Shown: in pieces, positions 50,958-58,011 of the stretch
How positions within the stretch are numbered: position 1 is the stretch's first letter
Layout: each line of letters opens with the position of its first letter
Source of the DNA: Yoonia vestfoldensis
GTDB taxonomy: Bacteria; Pseudomonadota; Alphaproteobacteria; Rhodobacterales; Rhodobacteraceae
Assembly: GCF_002158905.1 (NCBI RefSeq)
Contig: NZ_CP021431.1
Location: 1,860,001 to 1,924,000 of the forward strand
DNA length: 64,000 bases
Direction of reading: 5' to 3'
Made by a program: the position numbers and the translations under genes
The notes under the pieces: generated by a model
What the model was told of the DNA's origin: nothing
Databases searched by the model: none
The model's input: only the letters and a program-made list of their open reading frames with translations

Positions 50958-52073
50958 ATGACGCAGGTCGCGCAGGATGAAAAACGCTATCGCTGGATCG
51001 GGGCGGCGGTCGCCCTTGTGGCGCTGGCGGGATGGTTGGTCGCGCTTTATTTCTGGTCTGCCGCCGGCGAGGCCCGCGACAGGCTGGCCCAGCATGTGAC
51101 CCTGCATGGCACGACCCAAGAGCTGGAACAGCAGATCACCACCCTGCGCGCGCAAACCCAAGAGGCCCGCACGATGCGCGATACCGCCTTTGGCGAGCGC
51201 GACACGCTCAGCACCGAGCTGGACCAGATGCGCCGCGATTTCACCACGCTGGACCAAGACAGCACCGCCTTGCGCAGCAGCAACGCTAGCCTGCAAAGCG
51301 CCTTGGACGAAGGCCGCCAGAACCTGTCAGAGATCACCGCCGCGCTGTCCGAGACCCAAGACCGCGCGACCGAGGCCACGCAGGAATTATCCGATATCGG
51401 CGCAAGGCTTGAAACCGCGCGCGCGCAAGAGGCCGCCTTGCGATCCACCCTGTCGGCACTGAATGCGCAAGCCGCAAGCCTGACCGCGCAGGCCGCAGAT
51501 GCCGAGGACCGCATCCAGGCCGCCCGCGACGCCGAAGCCACGCTGGAACAGCGCCAGCAAAGCGCGCGTGACGCGCAGGCCGAGATTGAAAGCACCCGCG
51601 CCCGCTTGCAGGCGGCGGTCGCGCGGCTGTCGCAGCAGCGTGATGCGCTGGTCGATGATGCACAAGCCGCCCGCGCGCAGGTGCAGGCGCTGCATGGCGT
51701 GACCCGCGATTTGGCAGCACTGCTGGCCCGGCGCAGCGATGATCTGCAAACTATCGAAGCGCGGATCAGCAGTACGCAGCAAGTCTCTGGTCTGGCGCTG
51801 GCCACGGCCTATGCGCATGACAACATCCGCATCCGCTTTGCGCCAGACGGGGCTTTTACGATGCGCAACACCAGAACTGGCCGCGCCGTGACCGGCGACT
51901 ATACCCTGTCCGCGGGCCAGATCACCTTTGACGGGGTTGCGGGCGATACCGGCTCTGCCGCTTTTCCGATGCGCTGCGCGCTGTCGATCCGCCAAGACGG
52001 CTTTGCGCTGGCAGATGACGACGGGTCTTGTGCGCTGCTGGACGGGATGGATTTCACCCGCGCCGAAGGCTAG
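50958..52073 (+). CDS. Membrane-anchored coiled-coil protein, unknown function
   Basis: A 371-residue protein. One N-terminal membrane helix (WIGAAVALVALAGWLVALYFW) is followed by a coiled coil of about 220 residues rich in Gln, Arg, Glu and Ala heptads. A small C-terminal domain of about 90 residues follows (IRIRFAPDGAFTMRNTRTGRAVTGDYTLSAGQITFDG, then FPMRCALSIRQDGF). AGGAG precedes the ATG. The membrane orientation suggests that coil and tail lie in the periplasm. The tail looks like a small beta domain. I do not recognise a named family. Confidence 0.75.
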   Translation: MTQVAQDEKRYRWIGAAVALVALAGWLVALYFWSAAGEARDRLAQHVTLHGTTQELEQQITTLRAQTQEARTMRDTAFGERDTLSTELDQMRRDFTTLDQDSTALRSSNASLQSALDEGRQNLSEITAALSETQDRATEATQELSDIGARLETARAQEAALRSTLSALNAQAASLTAQAADAEDRIQAARDAEATLEQRQQSARDAQAEIESTRARLQAAVARLSQQRDALVDDAQAARAQVQALHGVTRDLAALLARRSDDLQTIEARISSTQQVSGLALATAYAHDNIRIRFAPDGAFTMRNTRTGRAVTGDYTLSAGQITFDGVAGDTGSAAFPMRCALSIRQDGFALADDDGSCALLDGMDFTRAEG

Positions 52074-52094
52074 CGCCCCGCGCGCCCGCCCCGG

Positions 52095-52373
52095 TCAGCG
52101 CGGGCTGAGGTAATCAGCCGAGACATAGCCCGTCACCCCCGGCGCATCCGCCAGCGTCACCCGGCACCAGCGCTGCCCCAATTCGGTCACGCAATCCTGC
52201 TGCGTCAAGGCGGTGCCATCGGGCAGGCCCATGATGACCGTGAACCCCAGCCCCGGCCCTGCCCGCAGTTTGAGCATATCATCAGGCCCGGCCCCCGCGA
52301 CAACCACATTGCCGCCGCTGCATCCGGCGACCAATATCAGGGCGGTAACGGCAAGAACGCATATCCGGTGCAT
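52095..52373 (-). CDS. SH3-domain lipoprotein
   Basis: A 92-residue protein with lipoprotein signal MHRICVLAVTALILVAGC (lipobox LVAGC, Cys18) and one bacterial SH3 domain (MLKLRAGPGLGFTVIMGLPDGTALTQ, then RWCRVTL and GYVSADYL). Such domains bind cell-wall peptides or partner proteins in the periplasm. It is single-gene, between converging neighbours. Confidence 0.85.
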   Translation of the reverse strand: MHRICVLAVTALILVAGCSGGNVVVAGAGPDDMLKLRAGPGLGFTVIMGLPDGTALTQQDCVTELGQRWCRVTLADAPGVTGYVSADYLSPR

Positions 52374-52459
52374 CAGCTGACCTTTGCTTGGTGGCGGTTA
52401 TCTGGTGTTATCGCATCCGCCTTGGCGCGGGTGAAGCCCAAAACGCGCGCCCCGCGTGA

Positions 52460-53092
52460 TTACCAGCGCAGCAGCCAGCGGCCCGATACGGCCCCCAGCA
52501 GCGCAACCGACAAAATCGCCGCCCCATAAGCGGGCAGCACGAAAAGCACGGCATCCTGATTGCAGTAAAATGAATAGAGCGCCGCCGCAGCCCCGCCTGC
52601 GGCCAGCCCCGCCAGCGCGCCCGCCAGCTGCGGCCGCAGCACCGCCCCGGCGCGCAGCGACCACAAAAGCGCCGCCAGCAATGGCAGGCCCAGCATCGGC
52701 ACGCTGATCAGGCAGACCCACAGGCTGGGGATCGCCAGCGCCTCGGGCAGCGCGGCCAGCCCCAGGCGGTGCAGATGAAAGGCAAAGACCGCCAGCAGCG
52801 ATGCTGCAAAGACCCCCAGCAGCGCCCAGCGCCAGCCCGCCGTCATCCCCGGACGGGCCAGGCGGATCACCACACCAAAGGCCAGCCCCGCCAGCGCCGC
52901 CGGCAGGATCGTTTTCAGCACCGGCACAGACCCCAGCGCCGTGCCGATATCCGCGCGCATCCCCCACAAAGCACCAAAAGCCACCAGGCAGATCGCCAGC
53001 GCCACGGGCAGCGCGCGCACCAGCCGCGCCGCGATGCCGGGCTGGCGCAAAGTATCGGCGGCAAGTGCCGCGATCAGCGCGTCGGTCTTCAT
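52460..53092 (-). CDS. nrsF: NrsF-type membrane anti-sigma factor (DUF1109)
   Basis: A 210-residue protein with about six membrane helices, matching the DUF1109/NrsF family that holds SigF inactive at the membrane. Cys127 (SLWVCLIS) and Cys177 (YSFYCNQD) are 50 residues apart, the same spacing as the two functionally important Cys of Caulobacter NrsF as I recall them. The gene overlaps sigF by four bases. It likely releases SigF on metal or redox stress. Confidence 0.9.
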   Translation of the reverse strand: MKTDALIAALAADTLRQPGIAARLVRALPVALAICLVAFGALWGMRADIGTALGSVPVLKTILPAALAGLAFGVVIRLARPGMTAGWRWALLGVFAASLLAVFAFHLHRLGLAALPEALAIPSLWVCLISVPMLGLPLLAALLWSLRAGAVLRPQLAGALAGLAAGGAAAALYSFYCNQDAVLFVLPAYGAAILSVALLGAVSGRWLLRW

Positions 53093-53631
53093 TCGATCAT
53101 CCTTTCACGCAATTGCGCCAGCGCCCGCAGCCCCCGGTGCAAGGCCACCCGCACAGCGCCTTCGCTCATGCCCAGACGCGCCGCCGTCTCGGCCGTGGTT
53201 TCCCCGCGCAGGCCAAAGCCGCGCAGGATATCTGCCGCGCGCGGCTCTAGCGCGCCCAACAGCTTTTCCATATCGCGCCCCGCCATCGGGTCCGGCCCCT
53301 GCGGCGCGGCAAGCCCCTGCGCGAAATCCTCGATCGCAACCTCGACACGGCGGCCACGGGCGCGGAAAGCATCCACCACCTTGTGCCGGGCGATGGCATA
53401 AAGCCAAGGGCGCAGCGGCGCGGTTTCGACCCATGTATGCCGCTTGGTATGGATGGCCAACAGCACATCCTGGACCACATCCTCGCAGGTCTCTGGCCCA
53501 AGCCCCGCCCCCCGCGCCTGCACAACGCGGCGCAAAACCGGCGTGATCGCCTGCAACAGATGGCGGTAAGCCACCGTATCACCGGCATTGGCGGCGCGCA
53601 TCAGATCATCCCAAGGGGCGTTTTTGTCCAA
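53089..53631 (-). CDS. sigF: ECF sigma factor SigF
   Basis: An ECF sigma factor with region 2 ([56 protein letters not shown]) and region 4 ([31 protein letters not shown]). The open frame reaches 53700, but the SigF-type promoter at 53645-53670 lies inside that extension. Translation must therefore begin downstream of it. TTG 53631 (after AGGGA) gives 180 residues; ATG 53601 (after GGGA) gives 170 residues and a longer leader, and is also credible. It controls the divergent buf operon and itself. Confidence 0.88.
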
Positions 53632-53644
53632 GTCATGATCCCTG

Positions 53645-53670
53645 TTCGTCCCGCCTGCGGCAAATGTTAC
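53645..53670 (-). promoter_or_regulatory. SigF-dependent promoter of sigF-nrsF
   Basis: On the minus strand GTAACA (53670-53665), exactly 16 bases, and CGAA (53648-53645). This matches the Caulobacter SigF consensus GTAACC-N16-CGAA known to me, except the last base of the -35 box. An identical arrangement precedes bufA on the other strand. Confidence 0.8.
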
Positions 53671-53739
53671 AGCCATGCGCCGCCGCTTGCCCAGAAACAA
53701 ATGGCTGGGCTTTCAGCGGTTCACATGGACGTGAGCGGC

Positions 53740-53765
53740 GTAACACAGGGCCGCAATGGCGCGAA
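53740..53765 (+). promoter_or_regulatory. SigF-dependent promoter of the buf operon
   Basis: GTAACA (53740-53745), 16 bases and CGAA (53762-53765), the same element as before sigF. It would give the bufA message a leader of about 43 bases carrying the CAGGAG ribosome site. Confidence 0.8.
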
Positions 53766-53814
53766 TTGCTTTGCGGGACTGCATTGGCGCAGCCCATCAA
53801 CAGGAGTGATCTTC

Positions 53815-54126
53815 ATGACGACCAAAACGCTTTCGCTTTCTCTTGCTGCTTCGCTGGCCTCGGCGCTGACCCTGTCCGCCGGAGCCGTCAACGCACAACA
53901 AGCCACGATGGAAAAATGCTTTGGCATCTCGCTGGCCGGGGCCAATGATTGCGCCGCCGGTCCTGGCACCACATGCGCGGGCACATCCACCGTCGATTAC
54001 CAGGGCAACGCCTGGACGCTGGTCGCCACCGGCACCTGCACCGAGATCACCTTGCCCGCCATGGCCGATGGATCCGCGCGCATGGGCGCGCTGCAGGAAC
54101 TGGACCGCGATCTGCCCCCGGCATGA
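53815..54126 (+). CDS. bufA: Bufferin precursor BufA1 (DUF2282)
   Basis: A 103-residue precursor with signal peptide [20 protein letters not shown] and cleavage near AVNA-QQ (residue 27). The mature part has four Cys (35, 46, 54, 75) in the DUF2282 pattern: [39 protein letters not shown]. Bufferins are modified on Cys by a multinuclear iron oxidative enzyme and bind copper in the periplasm. The next genes are exactly that enzyme and its partners. The start follows CAGGAG; a longer open frame back to 53383 is antisense to sigF. Confidence 0.93.
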
Positions 54127-54195
54127 TCTGCCCTCACCTGATCTGAACGCAGGGGCGGGGATATCGCCCCGCCCTGTTATCGAAAGGATTTTGTC

Positions 54196-55044
54196 ATGCC
54201 CGCATTGCCCCGCAGGCCCGGATTGGGGTTCAAACCGCAGCATTTCGCGCAGATGATGGCCACCGACGCCATCGGTTTCATCGAGGTTCATGCCGAGAAT
54301 TACATGGGCGATGGCGGCGCGCCCCATGCGATGCTGGCCGCCTTGCGTGACCGCCATGCCCTGTCCATACACGGGATCGGCCTGTCGATCGGCAGCGCGC
54401 AGGGGCTGGACCGCGCCCATCTTGCACGGCTGCGCGCCTTGATCGCGCGTTATCAACCGCATAGCTTTTCGGAACATCTGGCCTGGTCCAGCCATGGTGC
54501 GGCCTGGCTCAACGATCTTTTGCCCCTGCCCTATACGCCCCAAAGCCTGGCCACGATCTGCGCCCATGTGGATCAGGTGCAGGACAGCCTGGGCCGCCAG
54601 ATGCTGCTGGAAAACCCCGCCACCTATGTGACCTTCGCCAGCTCGACCCTGTCCGAGACCGATTTTCTGACCGAATTGGTGCGCCGCACCGGCTGTGGGC
54701 TGCTGCTTGATATCAACAATGTCTTTGTCTCTGCCACCAATCACCGCTTTGATGCGCGTGCCTATCTGGACGATTTTCCACTCTTTGCCGTGGGTGAAAT
54801 CCACCTGGCCGGGCATGATAGCGAAGATTTGCCATCCGGTCCGCTGCTGATCGACAGCCATGGCGCGCCCGTGGCCGCGCCTGTCTGGGCGCTTTATGCG
54901 CAGGTGCTGGCCCGCACCGGCCCTTTGCCCACGCTGATCGAATGGGACAATGACCTGCCCGATTTCGCCACCCTGTTGGCCGAGGCCAACCGCGCGCAGG
55001 CGATCTTGCAGGATGCGCAAAGGCAGCAGACCAATGCAGCCTGA
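54196..55044 (+). CDS. bufB: Multinuclear non-haem iron oxidative enzyme BufB (DUF692/MNIO)
   Basis: A 282-residue TIM-barrel enzyme that modifies Cys residues of the bufferin precursor. Family metal-site and core motifs are present: VHAENY (28-36), SIHG (His59), SEHLAW (Glu93, His94), LLENPATYV (Glu139), [12 protein letters not shown] (Asp172, Asn174, His183), EIHLAGH (Glu201, His203, His207), DSHG (Asp220, His222), EWDNDLP (Glu249). It overlaps bufC by 11 bases. Confidence 0.94.
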
Positions 55045-55780
55045 CAGCCACGGCGCCCTGCAAGCGGCGTTTGAGGCCGCCTTGTGGCAGCCGGACCCGC
55101 CTGCCGGGCTGCGCGCACCGGTGATGGACGACCTGGCGCAGCGTTTCGCGGTTTACCGCAACAATGTGCAGCACAGCCTGACGCGCGCACTGGCCGCGCG
55201 GTTCATCGTGGTGGAACACTTGGTCGGCCCCGCGTTCTTTGCCGCGATGGCGCGGGTCCATATCGCGCAGAACCCGCCGCAAAGTCCTGTTTTGCTGGCT
55301 TGGGGGGGCGATTTTGCGGATTTTCTGGATGGCTTTGCCCCGGTCGCGCATCTGCCGTTTCTGGGCGATGTGGCGCGGCTGGAATATGCGCGCGGCCTTG
55401 CCTATCACGCCGCGGATGCGCTGCCGCTTGACGCAGAGGCGCTGGCCGTCACCCCGCCCGAGACCTTGCAGCTGGCGCTGCATCCTTCGGTGCAGCTGTT
55501 CACATCGGCGCATCCTGCGCTGCAAATCTGGCAGGCCCATCAGCCCGGCGCGGCGCGCGGCGCGCTGCGCGCCGGACCCGACCATGCGCTGATCGCGCGC
55601 GCGCCGGATTTCAGCATCCTGACCACCGCGCTGGACCCGGGCACAAATGCTGTCCTGCGCGCCTTGGCGGCCGGCGAGACATTGGCCACCGCCGCGCGCC
55701 ATGCTGACCCGACGGCCGCGCTGACCCTGCTTTTGCGCCACGGTCTGATCACCGCAATCACCACAGGAGTATCCTCATGA
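55034..55780 (+). CDS. bufC: BufC-type partner of the MNIO enzyme (DUF2063)
   Basis: A 248-residue protein. The N-terminal DUF2063-like domain ([38 protein letters not shown], then [21 protein letters not shown]) is followed by a C-terminal part. In MNIO systems such proteins recognise and present the precursor peptide to the enzyme. ATG 55034 lies just inside the end of bufB; the open frame upstream is antisense noise. It overlaps bufD by four bases. Confidence 0.9.
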
Positions 55781-56250
55781 CCCTCATCACAGCCCTGCGC
55801 GACCGCATCGGGCAGATCAATGCGCTGGCCGATCATCTGCCCCAGGATGCCGTGGCTTTGGCCGCACGGCTGTTTCCGGCTGTTGTTTTCTGGCAATCGG
55901 CGCGCACCAAGGTCGATGGAATCACGATCAAGGAATCGACCTATTTTTTGTTCGAACAGGTCTATGCGCTGCCCCTGATCGCGCCCGCAACCGCCGCCCA
56001 GCTGGCGACATTGGCCGAACATCTGCTGCCGCTGCTGCTGGTGTTTGGGCTTTTTGCGCGGCTTGGCGCGCTGGGGCTGCTGGTGATGACGGCGGTGATC
56101 CAGATTTTCGTCTTTCCGGCGGCCTGGGTGACGCATGGGCTCTGGGCGGCGGCGCTGCTGGTGGTGCTGGCGCAGGGGCCGGGGCGGCTGTCGCTGGATC
56201 ACCTGCTGGGGCTGGATCATGGCCGCGCGCGGCCCAAGCCGCTGTCCTAA
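55777..56250 (+). CDS. bufD: BufD-type DoxX membrane protein
   Basis: A 157-residue DoxX-family membrane protein with four helices and typical segments [55 protein letters not shown] and [14 protein letters not shown] sequence. It ends the bufABCD operon. Its role in bufferin systems is not settled; membrane redox or metal handling has been suggested for DoxX proteins. Confidence 0.9.
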
Positions 56251-56292
56251 GGTCAAGGCCTGGGACATTTTTGCGCCAGCGCCGCCAAGGGA

Positions 56293-56323
56293 TTGACACC
56301 CAAAGGTTGTTGTTGCCTATCGT
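56293..56323 (+). promoter_or_regulatory. Weak promoter before the histidine kinase
   Basis: A perfect TTGACA (56293-56298) is followed after 19 bases by TATCGT. The spacing is long, so this is a tentative call in the 108-base gap after bufD. Confidence 0.3.
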
Positions 56324-56358
56324 AAAACCTTAACCACGTTCAGGATGGGTGGCGGTGG

Positions 56359-58011
56359 ATGGCGATCGAGCAAAGGGGCGGATATCAGGCAGTGCATGGA
56401 AGCGCGGCCAGACCCTCTGACAGGTTCCGTGGCGAGATCCGGCTGCTGGCGCTGGCGGCGCTGCTGATCTGGCTCGTTCTGGGGCTGGTCGTGGTGATGA
56501 TGGGCAAAAAGGAATGGGACGGGATCACATCGACCGTGCAATCCAATGCGACCACCGTCGCCCGGCTGCTGGCGGTGCAATCGGACCAATTGCTGCTGAC
56601 GGCGGATGTGACGCGCGATCACGCCGCGCGCGTGCTGGGCGATGCGGGGCCATTCATCGCGGACCGCGCCGCACAACAGGCGCTGGCGCAGATGATCACC
56701 CGCAGCCAGACCATCGTGTCGATCTGGGTCGGCGACGCGCGCGGCGATGCCGTGCTGACAACGCGCGAATACCCCACGCCGGACCTGAATGCCGCCAGCC
56801 GCGACTATTTTACCACCGTGCGCGATGATCCGACACGGCTGTTCGTCGGCAATCTGATCGATAGCCAATATCCGGCCGAGGCTTTGCTGATCAACACCAG
56901 CCGCCGCCTGTCGCATCCTGACGGGACGATGCGGGGGTTCATCCAGATCTCGCTTGATCCGGCGACGATCAGCCAGACCTTCCAGCATGTCGAAATCGGG
57001 TTTGATGCGGCGCTGTGGTGGATCGGTCCCAATGGGCGGGCCTTGATCCGCGACCCTGCCCTGCCCCCCCAAGAGCTTGACGCGCGCATGCCCCCCGGTG
57101 CCCGTGATTGGCCGCGCAATTGGCCGGGTGACGGCGGCCCTGGTCCGGCCGAGGCGCTGACCGGACAATCCGGCATCGACGGCACCGAACGGCTGTTTTT
57201 CTGGAGCGATGCCCCCCTTTACGGCAGCCGCATCATCGTGGGCGTGTCACGCGCGGCGATGGTGGACCGCTGGATGGTGCAGATGATCTGGGCCACGGCG
57301 CTGGCCTTTGCGGTGGGTCTGGCGGGGATGGCCATTCTGTGGCTGCTTTATCGCTCGCGCCAGCGCGGTGCGATCTATGCGGCGCAGCTGGAAAATGACG
57401 TGCGCGACCGGACCCAGGCGCTGGCGCTGGCGATCGCGCAAAAAGACGTGGTGATGCAGGAATTGAGCCACCGGGTCCGCAACGCCTTTGCGACGATCCT
57501 GGCGCTGACCCGGCTGATGCTGCGCTCTAGCGACACGCTGGACAGGCTGCGCCACGATTTCCCGCCCCGGCTCGAAGCATTGGCGCGCAGCCATCTGGTG
57601 CTGGTCGATGCACAGGTGCGCGACAATGCGCAGATCAATGATCTGGTGCAGGCCTCGCTGGCGCCCTATGAAAACGACGAGACGCGGGTCGTGCTGACAG
57701 GTCCGGCGGTGGAATTATCGGCAAATGCGACGCTGGGGGTCGGGTTGATCCTGCATGAGCTGGTCACCAATGCCGTCAAATACGGCAGCCTTTCGGTGCC
57801 GGGGGGCACGATCAGCGTGCAATGGCAGGCGCAGCCCGAGGCGATCCAGCTGATCTGGCAGGAATCCGGTGGCCCTGCCGTCACCCCCCCGTCAGAGCGC
57901 GGATCAGGCTCGATGATCATCGACCGCGCGGCGTCTTTGTTCGGCGGGATCTTCACGCGCGATTTCGCCACGGATGGCGTGCGCGCGGAACTGACGATCC
58001 CTGTCGCATGA
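56359..58011 (+). CDS. HWE/HisKA_2-type sensor histidine kinase with periplasmic sensor
   Basis: A 550-residue kinase: first helix LLALAALLIWLVLGLVVVMM, a periplasmic Cache-like sensor (about residues 55-300, including AASRDYFTTVRDD and GFIQISLD), second helix ALAFAVGLAGMAILWLLY, then a HisKA_2 dimerisation domain with the phospho-His in MQELSHRVRNAFATILALTRLM. The ATPase domain has N-box HELVTNAVKYG and SGSMIIDRAASLFGG. Kinases of this type often feed the PhyR/EcfG general stress pathway, but neither gene is adjacent. The ligand is unknown. Confidence 0.88.
   Translation: MAIEQRGGYQAVHGSAARPSDRFRGEIRLLALAALLIWLVLGLVVVMMGKKEWDGITSTVQSNATTVARLLAVQSDQLLLTADVTRDHAARVLGDAGPFIADRAAQQALAQMITRSQTIVSIWVGDARGDAVLTTREYPTPDLNAASRDYFTTVRDDPTRLFVGNLIDSQYPAEALLINTSRRLSHPDGTMRGFIQISLDPATISQTFQHVEIGFDAALWWIGPNGRALIRDPALPPQELDARMPPGARDWPRNWPGDGGPGPAEALTGQSGIDGTERLFFWSDAPLYGSRIIVGVSRAAMVDRWMVQMIWATALAFAVGLAGMAILWLLYRSRQRGAIYAAQLENDVRDRTQALALAIAQKDVVMQELSHRVRNAFATILALTRLMLRSSDTLDRLRHDFPPRLEALARSHLVLVDAQVRDNAQINDLVQASLAPYENDETRVVLTGPAVELSANATLGVGLILHELVTNAVKYGSLSVPGGTISVQWQAQPEAIQLIWQESGGPAVTPPSERGSGSMIIDRAASLFGGIFTRDFATDGVRAELTIPVA

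Follow-up and report, generated by a model that had tools for sequence, protein, structure and literature searches.

How is the synthesis of a bufferin controlled? The question is raised by a locus of Yoonia vestfoldensis (Rhodobacteraceae; assembly GCF_002158905.1, genome 3.99 Mb) at positions 52460–56250 of the window, by which we mean the whole stretch of 64 000 nucleotides analysed (contig NZ_CP021431.1, positions 1 860 001–1 924 000); in genome coordinates the locus is C1:1912460–1916250. A first-pass annotation, made from the letters alone, had read it as a complete SigF–NrsF/bufferin (BufABCD) copper-stress module. The protein families, a BufB score above its family cut-off and a Caulobacter-like gene order support the module, while copper as the inducer is suggested by the behaviour of homologues. 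It is very probable, in our judgement, that the locus is a full Buf1 bufferin operon controlled by an ECF16 (extracytoplasmic function) sigma/anti-sigma switch of its own, working as proposed below. Added to the annotation here are the ECF16 promoters, a palindrome upstream of bufA and a hairpin between bufA and bufB.

The bufferin locus and its proteins

The genes nrsF and sigF are divergent from bufA–bufB–bufC–bufD, at the coordinates that had been annotated. The features of the locus are as follows.

52460..53092, minus strand: nrsF, membrane anti-sigma factor, 210 residues (PF06532, E = 6.7e-37); its ATG overlaps the sigF stop
53089..53631, minus strand: sigF, ECF16-type sigma factor (Sigma70_r2/r4; NF009165, 213.4 bits, cut-off 198); probable start
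53645..53670, minus strand: SigF promoter of sigF–nrsF, GTAACA-N16-CGAA
53721..53734, no strand: palindrome TCACATGGACGTGA, TCAC-N6-GTGA, 5 bp before the bufA −35 box; putative second-regulator site
53740..53765, plus strand: SigF promoter of bufABCD, GTAACA-N16-CGAA
53815..54126, plus strand: bufA, Buf1 precursor, 103 residues (PF10048, E = 1.6e-23; Cys35, Cys46, Cys54 and Cys75)
54152..54175, plus strand: bufA–bufB hairpin, GGGGCGGGG-ATATCG-CCCCGCCCT, intercistronic and GC-rich; stem kept in relatives, sequence differs
54196..55044, plus strand: bufB, MNIO bufferin maturase, 282 residues (NF050167; PF05114)
55034..55780, plus strand: bufC, DUF2063 partner, 248 residues (PF09836, E = 1.5e-23)
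55777..56250, plus strand: bufD, DoxX membrane protein, 157 residues (PF07681, E = 1.9e-14)

All six proteins match their respective Pfam families, and the genome holds one DUF2282, one MNIO and one NrsF gene. The control and synthesis unit is indeed contiguous: each component that had been named is present and adjoins the next, with overlaps of 4 bases between sigF and nrsF, 11 between bufB and bufC and 4 (ATGA) between bufC and bufD. The arrangement is that of Caulobacter crescentus CC3252–CC3257 (CCNA_03273, 03362–03366), which has the same six genes in the same order, a SigF box before both operons and an NrsF cysteine pair 50 residues apart, and which is SigF-controlled (PMC3511200; this and the other papers are cited from their accessible portions). 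In Caulobacter the SigF regulon also contains a second bufABC operon and msrPQ, whereas the whole genome here has a single DUF2282 and a single MNIO gene, and no further convincing SigF box was found in it. The closest named BufB relatives are from Yoonia sp. M30B39 and Y. vestfoldensis (85–89% identity, in a search that may omit the genome itself), within the Rhodobacterales lineage.

The DUF2282 precursor with four cysteines scores 82.9 bits against PF10048 (cut-off 22.4). Among 90 aligned BufA rows, with the window counted twice and tandem copies included, the four cysteine columns hold Cys in 90, 89, 89 and 88 rows. Read by eye, the N-terminus follows a typical n/h/AxA Sec-type pattern to about AVNA/QQ; bufferin and oxazolin precursors bear Sec signal peptides, and in Buf1 the central cysteines are modified, with the first and last in a disulfide (PMC12452194). 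The MNIO enzyme that had been proposed is well supported (PF05114, E = 5.4e-106; NF050167, 385.2 bits against a cut-off of 310). Over 82 aligned BufB rows, conservation reaches 95% or more in the stretches SEHLAW, LENP, DxNN and IDxH. The solved relatives of BufB are 3bww, 8hci and MbnB; the EN, DxNN and DxH parts can be aligned with the first of these, an MNIO structure, and in part with the last. We take residues of these motifs to be those that hold the iron.

The DUF2063 and DoxX assignments also stand, by the Pfam values listed above. BufC matches the HvfC-type family NF050145 over residues 10–220 at 43.9 bits (cut-off 142), and sequence searches found no solved relative of it. The AlphaFold2 model of BufC (27 sequences; mean predicted local distance difference test score 91.9) matches TglI over the whole chain (8hci_A, E = 9.3e-6, TM 0.61; also 8hi7_A) and the DUF2063 protein 3dee (E = 2.5e-5, TM 0.54), and these are its only fold matches below E 0.001. 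Pfam and predicted fold together support a DUF2063 + RRE partner, in which the RRE part is covered only within the whole-chain match. BufD scores 50.8 bits against the HvfX family NF050144, under the cut-off of 80. An MNIO enzyme and a DUF2063 partner are shared with Buf2 bufferins, oxazolin (HvfABC) and fontiphorin (proposed class name captophorins), unlike which the precursor here is a DUF2282 protein with four cysteines; sigF/nrsF genes accompany Buf1 but not Buf2 clusters (PMC12452194). Thiooxazole chemistry and copper binding are described for the MNIO/DUF2063 class (PMC13097082).

The ECF sigma gene adjoins a gene for an NrsF/DUF1109 anti-sigma factor, which reaches 127.7 bits against PF06532 and 78.4 against the NCBI equivalog NF042994 (AntiSigF_NrsF), with its cut-off of 300; judged by these scores, NrsF is homologous to the NF042994 family but not the same equivalog. 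The NrsF cysteine pair keeps the 50-residue spacing noted by the first-pass annotation (Cys127 and Cys177), yet a third, non-conserved cysteine (Cys35) is also present and the spacing is constant across the family, so that it carries no extra information here: in 58 aligned NrsF rows, the window counted twice, the two columns hold Cys in 56 and 58 rows and are 50 apart in all 56 that have both, and the corresponding pairs are 131/181 in Caulobacter and 129/179 in both Bradyrhizobium and Brucella (PMC3511200, PMC8315932, PMC3420878). The start of the longest sigF open reading frame (ORF) was rejected as too far upstream, because the sigF promoter falls inside that ORF. Alignment with relatives, together with where the promoter lies, makes TTG 53631 the probable start and ATG 53601 the alternative; a TTG stands at the equivalent position in four relatives (L104, L106, L107 and L110).

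SigF promoters and the inducing signal

The box GTAACA-N16-CGAA precedes both operons and is oriented outward, as TGTAACA...CGAA at sigF and CGTAACA...CGAA at bufA. The ECF16 consensus is (T/C)GTAAC-N17-CGAA (PMC8315932), and the Caulobacter SigF box is of the same type (PMC3511200); an ECF16 promoter is found at the sigma gene and at its target alike. Across the genome GTAACM-N16-CGAA has four matches, two of which are the promoters of this locus, and GTAAY-N17-CGWA has 17, 15 of them outside it. These counts prove nothing alone, because the reversed control patterns are commoner (21 and 95, respectively); the evidence is in the position of the boxes. All 15 outside matches lie within ORFs of 120–981 residues, ten with a Pfam domain and five without (L303, L304, L305, L311 and L312; 155–550 residues). 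Coverage by an ORF is weak evidence, since both SigF boxes of the window are themselves covered by spurious 247-residue ORFs. Further SigF targets in the genome were rejected, the outside matches being all ORF-covered and none convincing; one within a cytochrome c gene that adjoins a copper-ATPase-like ORF and one within a PpsR-like gene were taken for chance.

Relatives were surveyed at 101 loci (the window, 80 named relatives and 20 others), in 149 genomes of the family, one per genus, and in 289 genomes of the class. By hand count, 36 of the 80 named loci have nrsF–sigF diverging from the buf genes and 20 have sigF–nrsF downstream of them in the same orientation; no sigF appears in the surveyed DNA of 20 and the hit is weak or partial in four. 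For these loci and the window, GTAAC-N16/17/18-CGWA stands near 32 of 63 sigF starts (reversed pattern 0); for bufA it stands near 39 of 70 starts where the locus has a sigF hit (reversed 1) and near 10 of 20 where it has none (reversed 2). Among the misses are boxes with a different −10, for instance CGAC, CGAT or CGTC, and sigF genes placed 3′ of bufD, which need no box of their own. A scan for sigma-70 promoters stayed at chance level (one found, mean 0.7). Tandem bufA pairs precede bufB in eight loci, mostly from Rhizobiaceae (L146, L147, L148, L156, L158, L159, L160 and L170), and in seven of the eight a strict SigF box stands before one of the two copies.

The biochemical and regulatory steps that we propose for Y. 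vestfoldensis, including the copper signal and the peptide modification, are modelled on homologues. At rest SigF would be kept at the inner membrane by NrsF. A surplus of copper, or another thiol-reactive stress, would act on NrsF through Cys127 and Cys177 and free SigF, which would start the two divergent GTAAC-N17-CGAA promoters, its own (a positive feedback) and that of bufABCD. BufB and BufC would convert Cys46 and Cys54 of BufA to copper-binding groups, by homology 5-thiooxazoles; Sec would export the peptide, a Cys35–Cys75 disulfide would form, and the product would chelate periplasmic copper with assistance from BufD. A further regulator, probably an activator, may also act at bufA in Rhodobacterales, through a TCACG-N4-CGTGA-type site, and the hairpin after bufA may raise precursor mRNA above enzyme mRNA.

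The case for this switch draws on Caulobacter, in which serine substitution of the NrsF cysteines raises SigF activity (PMC3511200), copper upregulates CC3252–CC3257 under each of the four conditions tested (two of the values pass only a laxer test) and a sigF::Tn5 mutant is copper-sensitive (PMC8224329). We think it unlikely that the switch instead senses oxidants (HOCl, H2O2 or singlet oxygen), with a probably phototrophic host and bufferin as one output of a general thiol/oxidative-stress response. A PAS–helix–turn–helix regulator in the genome, which we assume to be PpsR, would suggest such phototrophy. EcfF–OsrA of Bradyrhizobium and BcrS–AbcS of Brucella share with the locus a DUF1109/NrsF anti-sigma factor with six predicted transmembrane segments, a cysteine pair 50 residues apart and the GTAAC-N17-CGAA consensus (PMC8315932); with the same two cysteines the former responds to H2O2 and singlet oxygen, release by H2O2 requiring Cys179 of OsrA (PMC3420878), and the latter to HOCl. 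The targets given for these two systems are methionine sulfoxide reductase (Msr) and other stress genes, with no bufferin operon named in the accessible portions. The point that speaks for copper in this comparison is the target set: Msr-type repair genes are common to several ECF16 regulons (PMC8315932), but here promoter-like matches outside likely genes occur only at sigF–nrsF and bufABCD. In addition to the copper response above, the Caulobacter SigF targets are not induced by agents that generate reactive oxygen species (PMC3511200).

A service to some other soft metal (Au, Ag, Cd or Cr) more than to copper seems improbable, more so than the oxidant reading. The Cupriavidus gig cluster is upregulated with Au, Ag and Cu (PMC8224329) and Caulobacter SigF responds to Cr and Cd (PMC3511200), but loss of Caulobacter sigF gives no Cr or Cd phenotype (PMC3511200) and a strong Cu phenotype (PMC8224329). 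Some observations weigh against the copper switch as we propose it. Copper is not fixed as the signal by NrsF itself, because ECF16/NrsF relatives respond to reactive oxygen species or HOCl and the Caulobacter sigF mutant is also impaired in stationary-phase oxidative stress (PMC8224329). The gig operon, which is related, is reported to have no effect on copper resistance in Cupriavidus CH34 (PMC8224329), and Caulobacter sigF is described as not strongly autoregulated (PMC3511200). One genome of the same genus (G399) has no NrsF match, so the SigF–NrsF switch is not universal even within the genus.

The palindrome upstream of bufA

With a confidence slightly better than even, we favour the following reading of the sequence patterns: Rhodobacterales bufferin operons would be under an undescribed second regulator at a TCACG-N4-CGTGA-type operator, single before the −35 box with SigF and often tandem in place of SigF where NrsF is missing, and a structure-conserved hairpin after bufA would set a high precursor-to-enzyme ratio in both.

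The strict form TCAC-N6-GTGA lies 4–6 bp before GTAAY in 18 of 90 bufA regions, at exactly 5 bp in 14, with two more matches at 10–11 bp. Its looser form CACR-N4-YGYGA is found at 4–7 bp in 32 of 42 SigF-linked Rhodobacterales loci, in one of six Rhodobacterales loci without sigF and in one of 32 others (taxon groups assigned by hand), the strict form likewise occurring in one of these 32 (Stappia). A shuffled mean of about 1.0 for the palindrome is probably due to a single row, L137, in which a copy of the promoter was left unshuffled. There are 40 distinct 24-mers among the 42 SigF-linked Rhodobacterales regions, and information content rises at both half-sites. By eye, the palindrome is also present in three of 15 bufA loci of other families (L259, L262 and L266), and Rhodobacter capsulatus (L124) has TCACGGCTGCGTGA at its position. 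Five loci (L113, L153, L163, L165 and L167) have palindromes farther from the −35 box, at roughly 10–11, 16 or 20 bp, spacings that may reflect helical phasing.

Many bufferin operons of the family are not accompanied by the switch. NrsF is above the cut-off in 22 of the 149 family genomes (23 with any match) and DUF2282 is present in 106; a hand comparison of the lists gives 88 of the 149 with DUF2282 and without any NrsF match. In the class survey NrsF is above the cut-off in 53 of 289 genomes. Twenty bufferin loci of Rhodobacteraceae (L084–L103), from genomes without an NrsF match, have no adjoining sigF or nrsF hit and no strict SigF box, two having a loose variant; the looser GTAAC-N15..18-CGW occurs somewhere in 300 bp in four of their 21 regions and strict TCAC-N6-GTGA in only two. 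Their operons share bufA–bufB–bufC and often a DoxX-like gene with the locus here. They differ in often having a tandem GTGA-N11/12-GTGA element instead and in a separate BufB clade, which they form with four other Rhodobacterales loci without sigF at a support of 1.0.

Over 60 further family loci (62 bufA upstream regions from L084–L103 and L187–L226; G130 and G083 apart, the genomes have no NrsF match), CACG-N4-YGTGA is found in 34 regions (shuffled mean 0.10; reversed 0) and GTGA-N11/12-GTGA also in 34 (shuffled mean 0.2), counts that are not independent because the patterns overlap. These operons, most of them in genomes where NrsF has no match, often carry in place of the SigF box a tandem element built around GTGA-N2-CACG-N5-GTGA. 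Across the 149 genomes this element has 93 matches in 76 genomes; by hand count, 33 of the matches lie just upstream of a DUF2282 match and 21 are one nearly invariant sequence, GTGAACCACGGCCAYGTGA (for example in L231, L232 and L234, and at C1:444868 in the Y. vestfoldensis genome), which probably lies inside one conserved coding region. A wider regulon was sought in the 149 genomes, and no other shared target of the element was established. From its pattern of occurrence the palindrome looks like the site of a putative second regulator, and in our reading a single operator would serve both contexts, as one site in SigF-linked bufA regions and often in tandem in operons without sigF.

It is rather unlikely, though less so than the oxidant reading above, that the palindrome belongs to an UP-like contact with SigF/RNA polymerase, or is a remnant of shared ancestry, and is not the site of a second protein. 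A contact of this kind would agree with the near-fixed spacing from the −35 box, with an A/T tract at the palindrome's position in several Hyphomicrobiales loci, and with the genome-wide count in 26 relatives, in which strict TCACG-N4-CGTGA shows no excess over the control. The palindrome is, however, absent (as CACR-N4-YGYGA) from all 60 sigF upstream regions, 37 of which have a recognisable GTAAY box; its core is present in the 34 of 62 bufA regions without adjoining sigF; and its flanks are not conserved (mean 0.13 bits at −60 to −31, against 0.56 at −24 to −7).

The second regulator that we favour has points to answer besides the count in the 26 relatives. Of the three TCACR-N4-YGTGA sites in the genome, the two outside this locus have no recognised regulator next to them. 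Clustering of the neighbours of 13 loci without sigF likewise revealed no recognisable regulator gene, the clusters of at least five members (named by eye) being BufB, two BufC/DoxX pieces, a threonyl-tRNA synthetase-like protein, a ThyX-like protein and one that was not recognised. At the spacing given, the palindrome is missing from ten of the 42 SigF-linked Rhodobacterales loci. In Caulobacter the bufA promoter (CC3254) was judged to be solely SigF-regulated, with an extra input at sigF instead, the reverse of our proposal. The literature accessible to the search makes no mention of the palindrome, the hairpin or another bufferin regulator beyond an extra regulator of sigF and CC2748 in Caulobacter; the palindrome and hairpin may be undescribed.

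The bufA–bufB hairpin and bufferin control in Rhodobacterales

The gap between bufA and bufB (54127–54195) folds at −25.6 kcal/mol, with a z of −2.17 (−1.7 with cruder shuffles). In a survey of 81 loci including the window, of which six were dropped for gap length, the 75 remaining gaps have a mean z of −2.2 and 45 are below −2. Of the 75, 62 have an uninterrupted stem of 8 bp or more (8.4 expected from shuffles) and 51 have one of 10 bp or more (1.3 expected). The arms comprise 48 distinct 8-mers, so that the shape is kept and the sequence is not. Stems of at least 8 bp are found in far fewer of the neighbouring 65-nucleotide stretches: three of 75 at the bufA end, four at the bufB start and 12 in the bufA leader. 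Among the 20 loci without sigF (L084–L103), 15 have the hairpin (2.3 expected). Terminator-like sites exceed shuffles (8 versus 3.1), with none at the bufA–bufB hairpin, and Rfam gave no match at gathering scores over 52000–56800. The hairpin of the window is not followed by a T run, which makes an mRNA stabiliser or partial attenuator more likely than a full terminator. It probably lets bufA outnumber its enzymes.

Two genes flank the locus. Just 3′ of nrsF, at 52095–52373 on the minus strand, is an SH3_3-domain lipoprotein-like gene, which among the 80 relatives only the three Yoonia loci have. After bufD, at 56359–58011 on the plus strand, is an HWE histidine kinase gene, shared among the 80 only by L106 (Y. 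vestfoldensis DSM 16212).

The module itself was already known, and it is the palindrome and the hairpin that deserve further attention. The locus confirms that in Rhodobacterales the Caulobacter-type switch and its bufferin operon are kept side by side as a single contiguous module. What it adds concerns regulation: the 88 of 149 genomes that have DUF2282 and no NrsF raise the question of how bufferin is controlled without SigF. A shared operator would provide a direct handle on this question, as a probe with which to fish out the regulator, and the conserved hairpin would offer a testable reason why a stoichiometric metal-binding peptide is made in excess over its enzymes.

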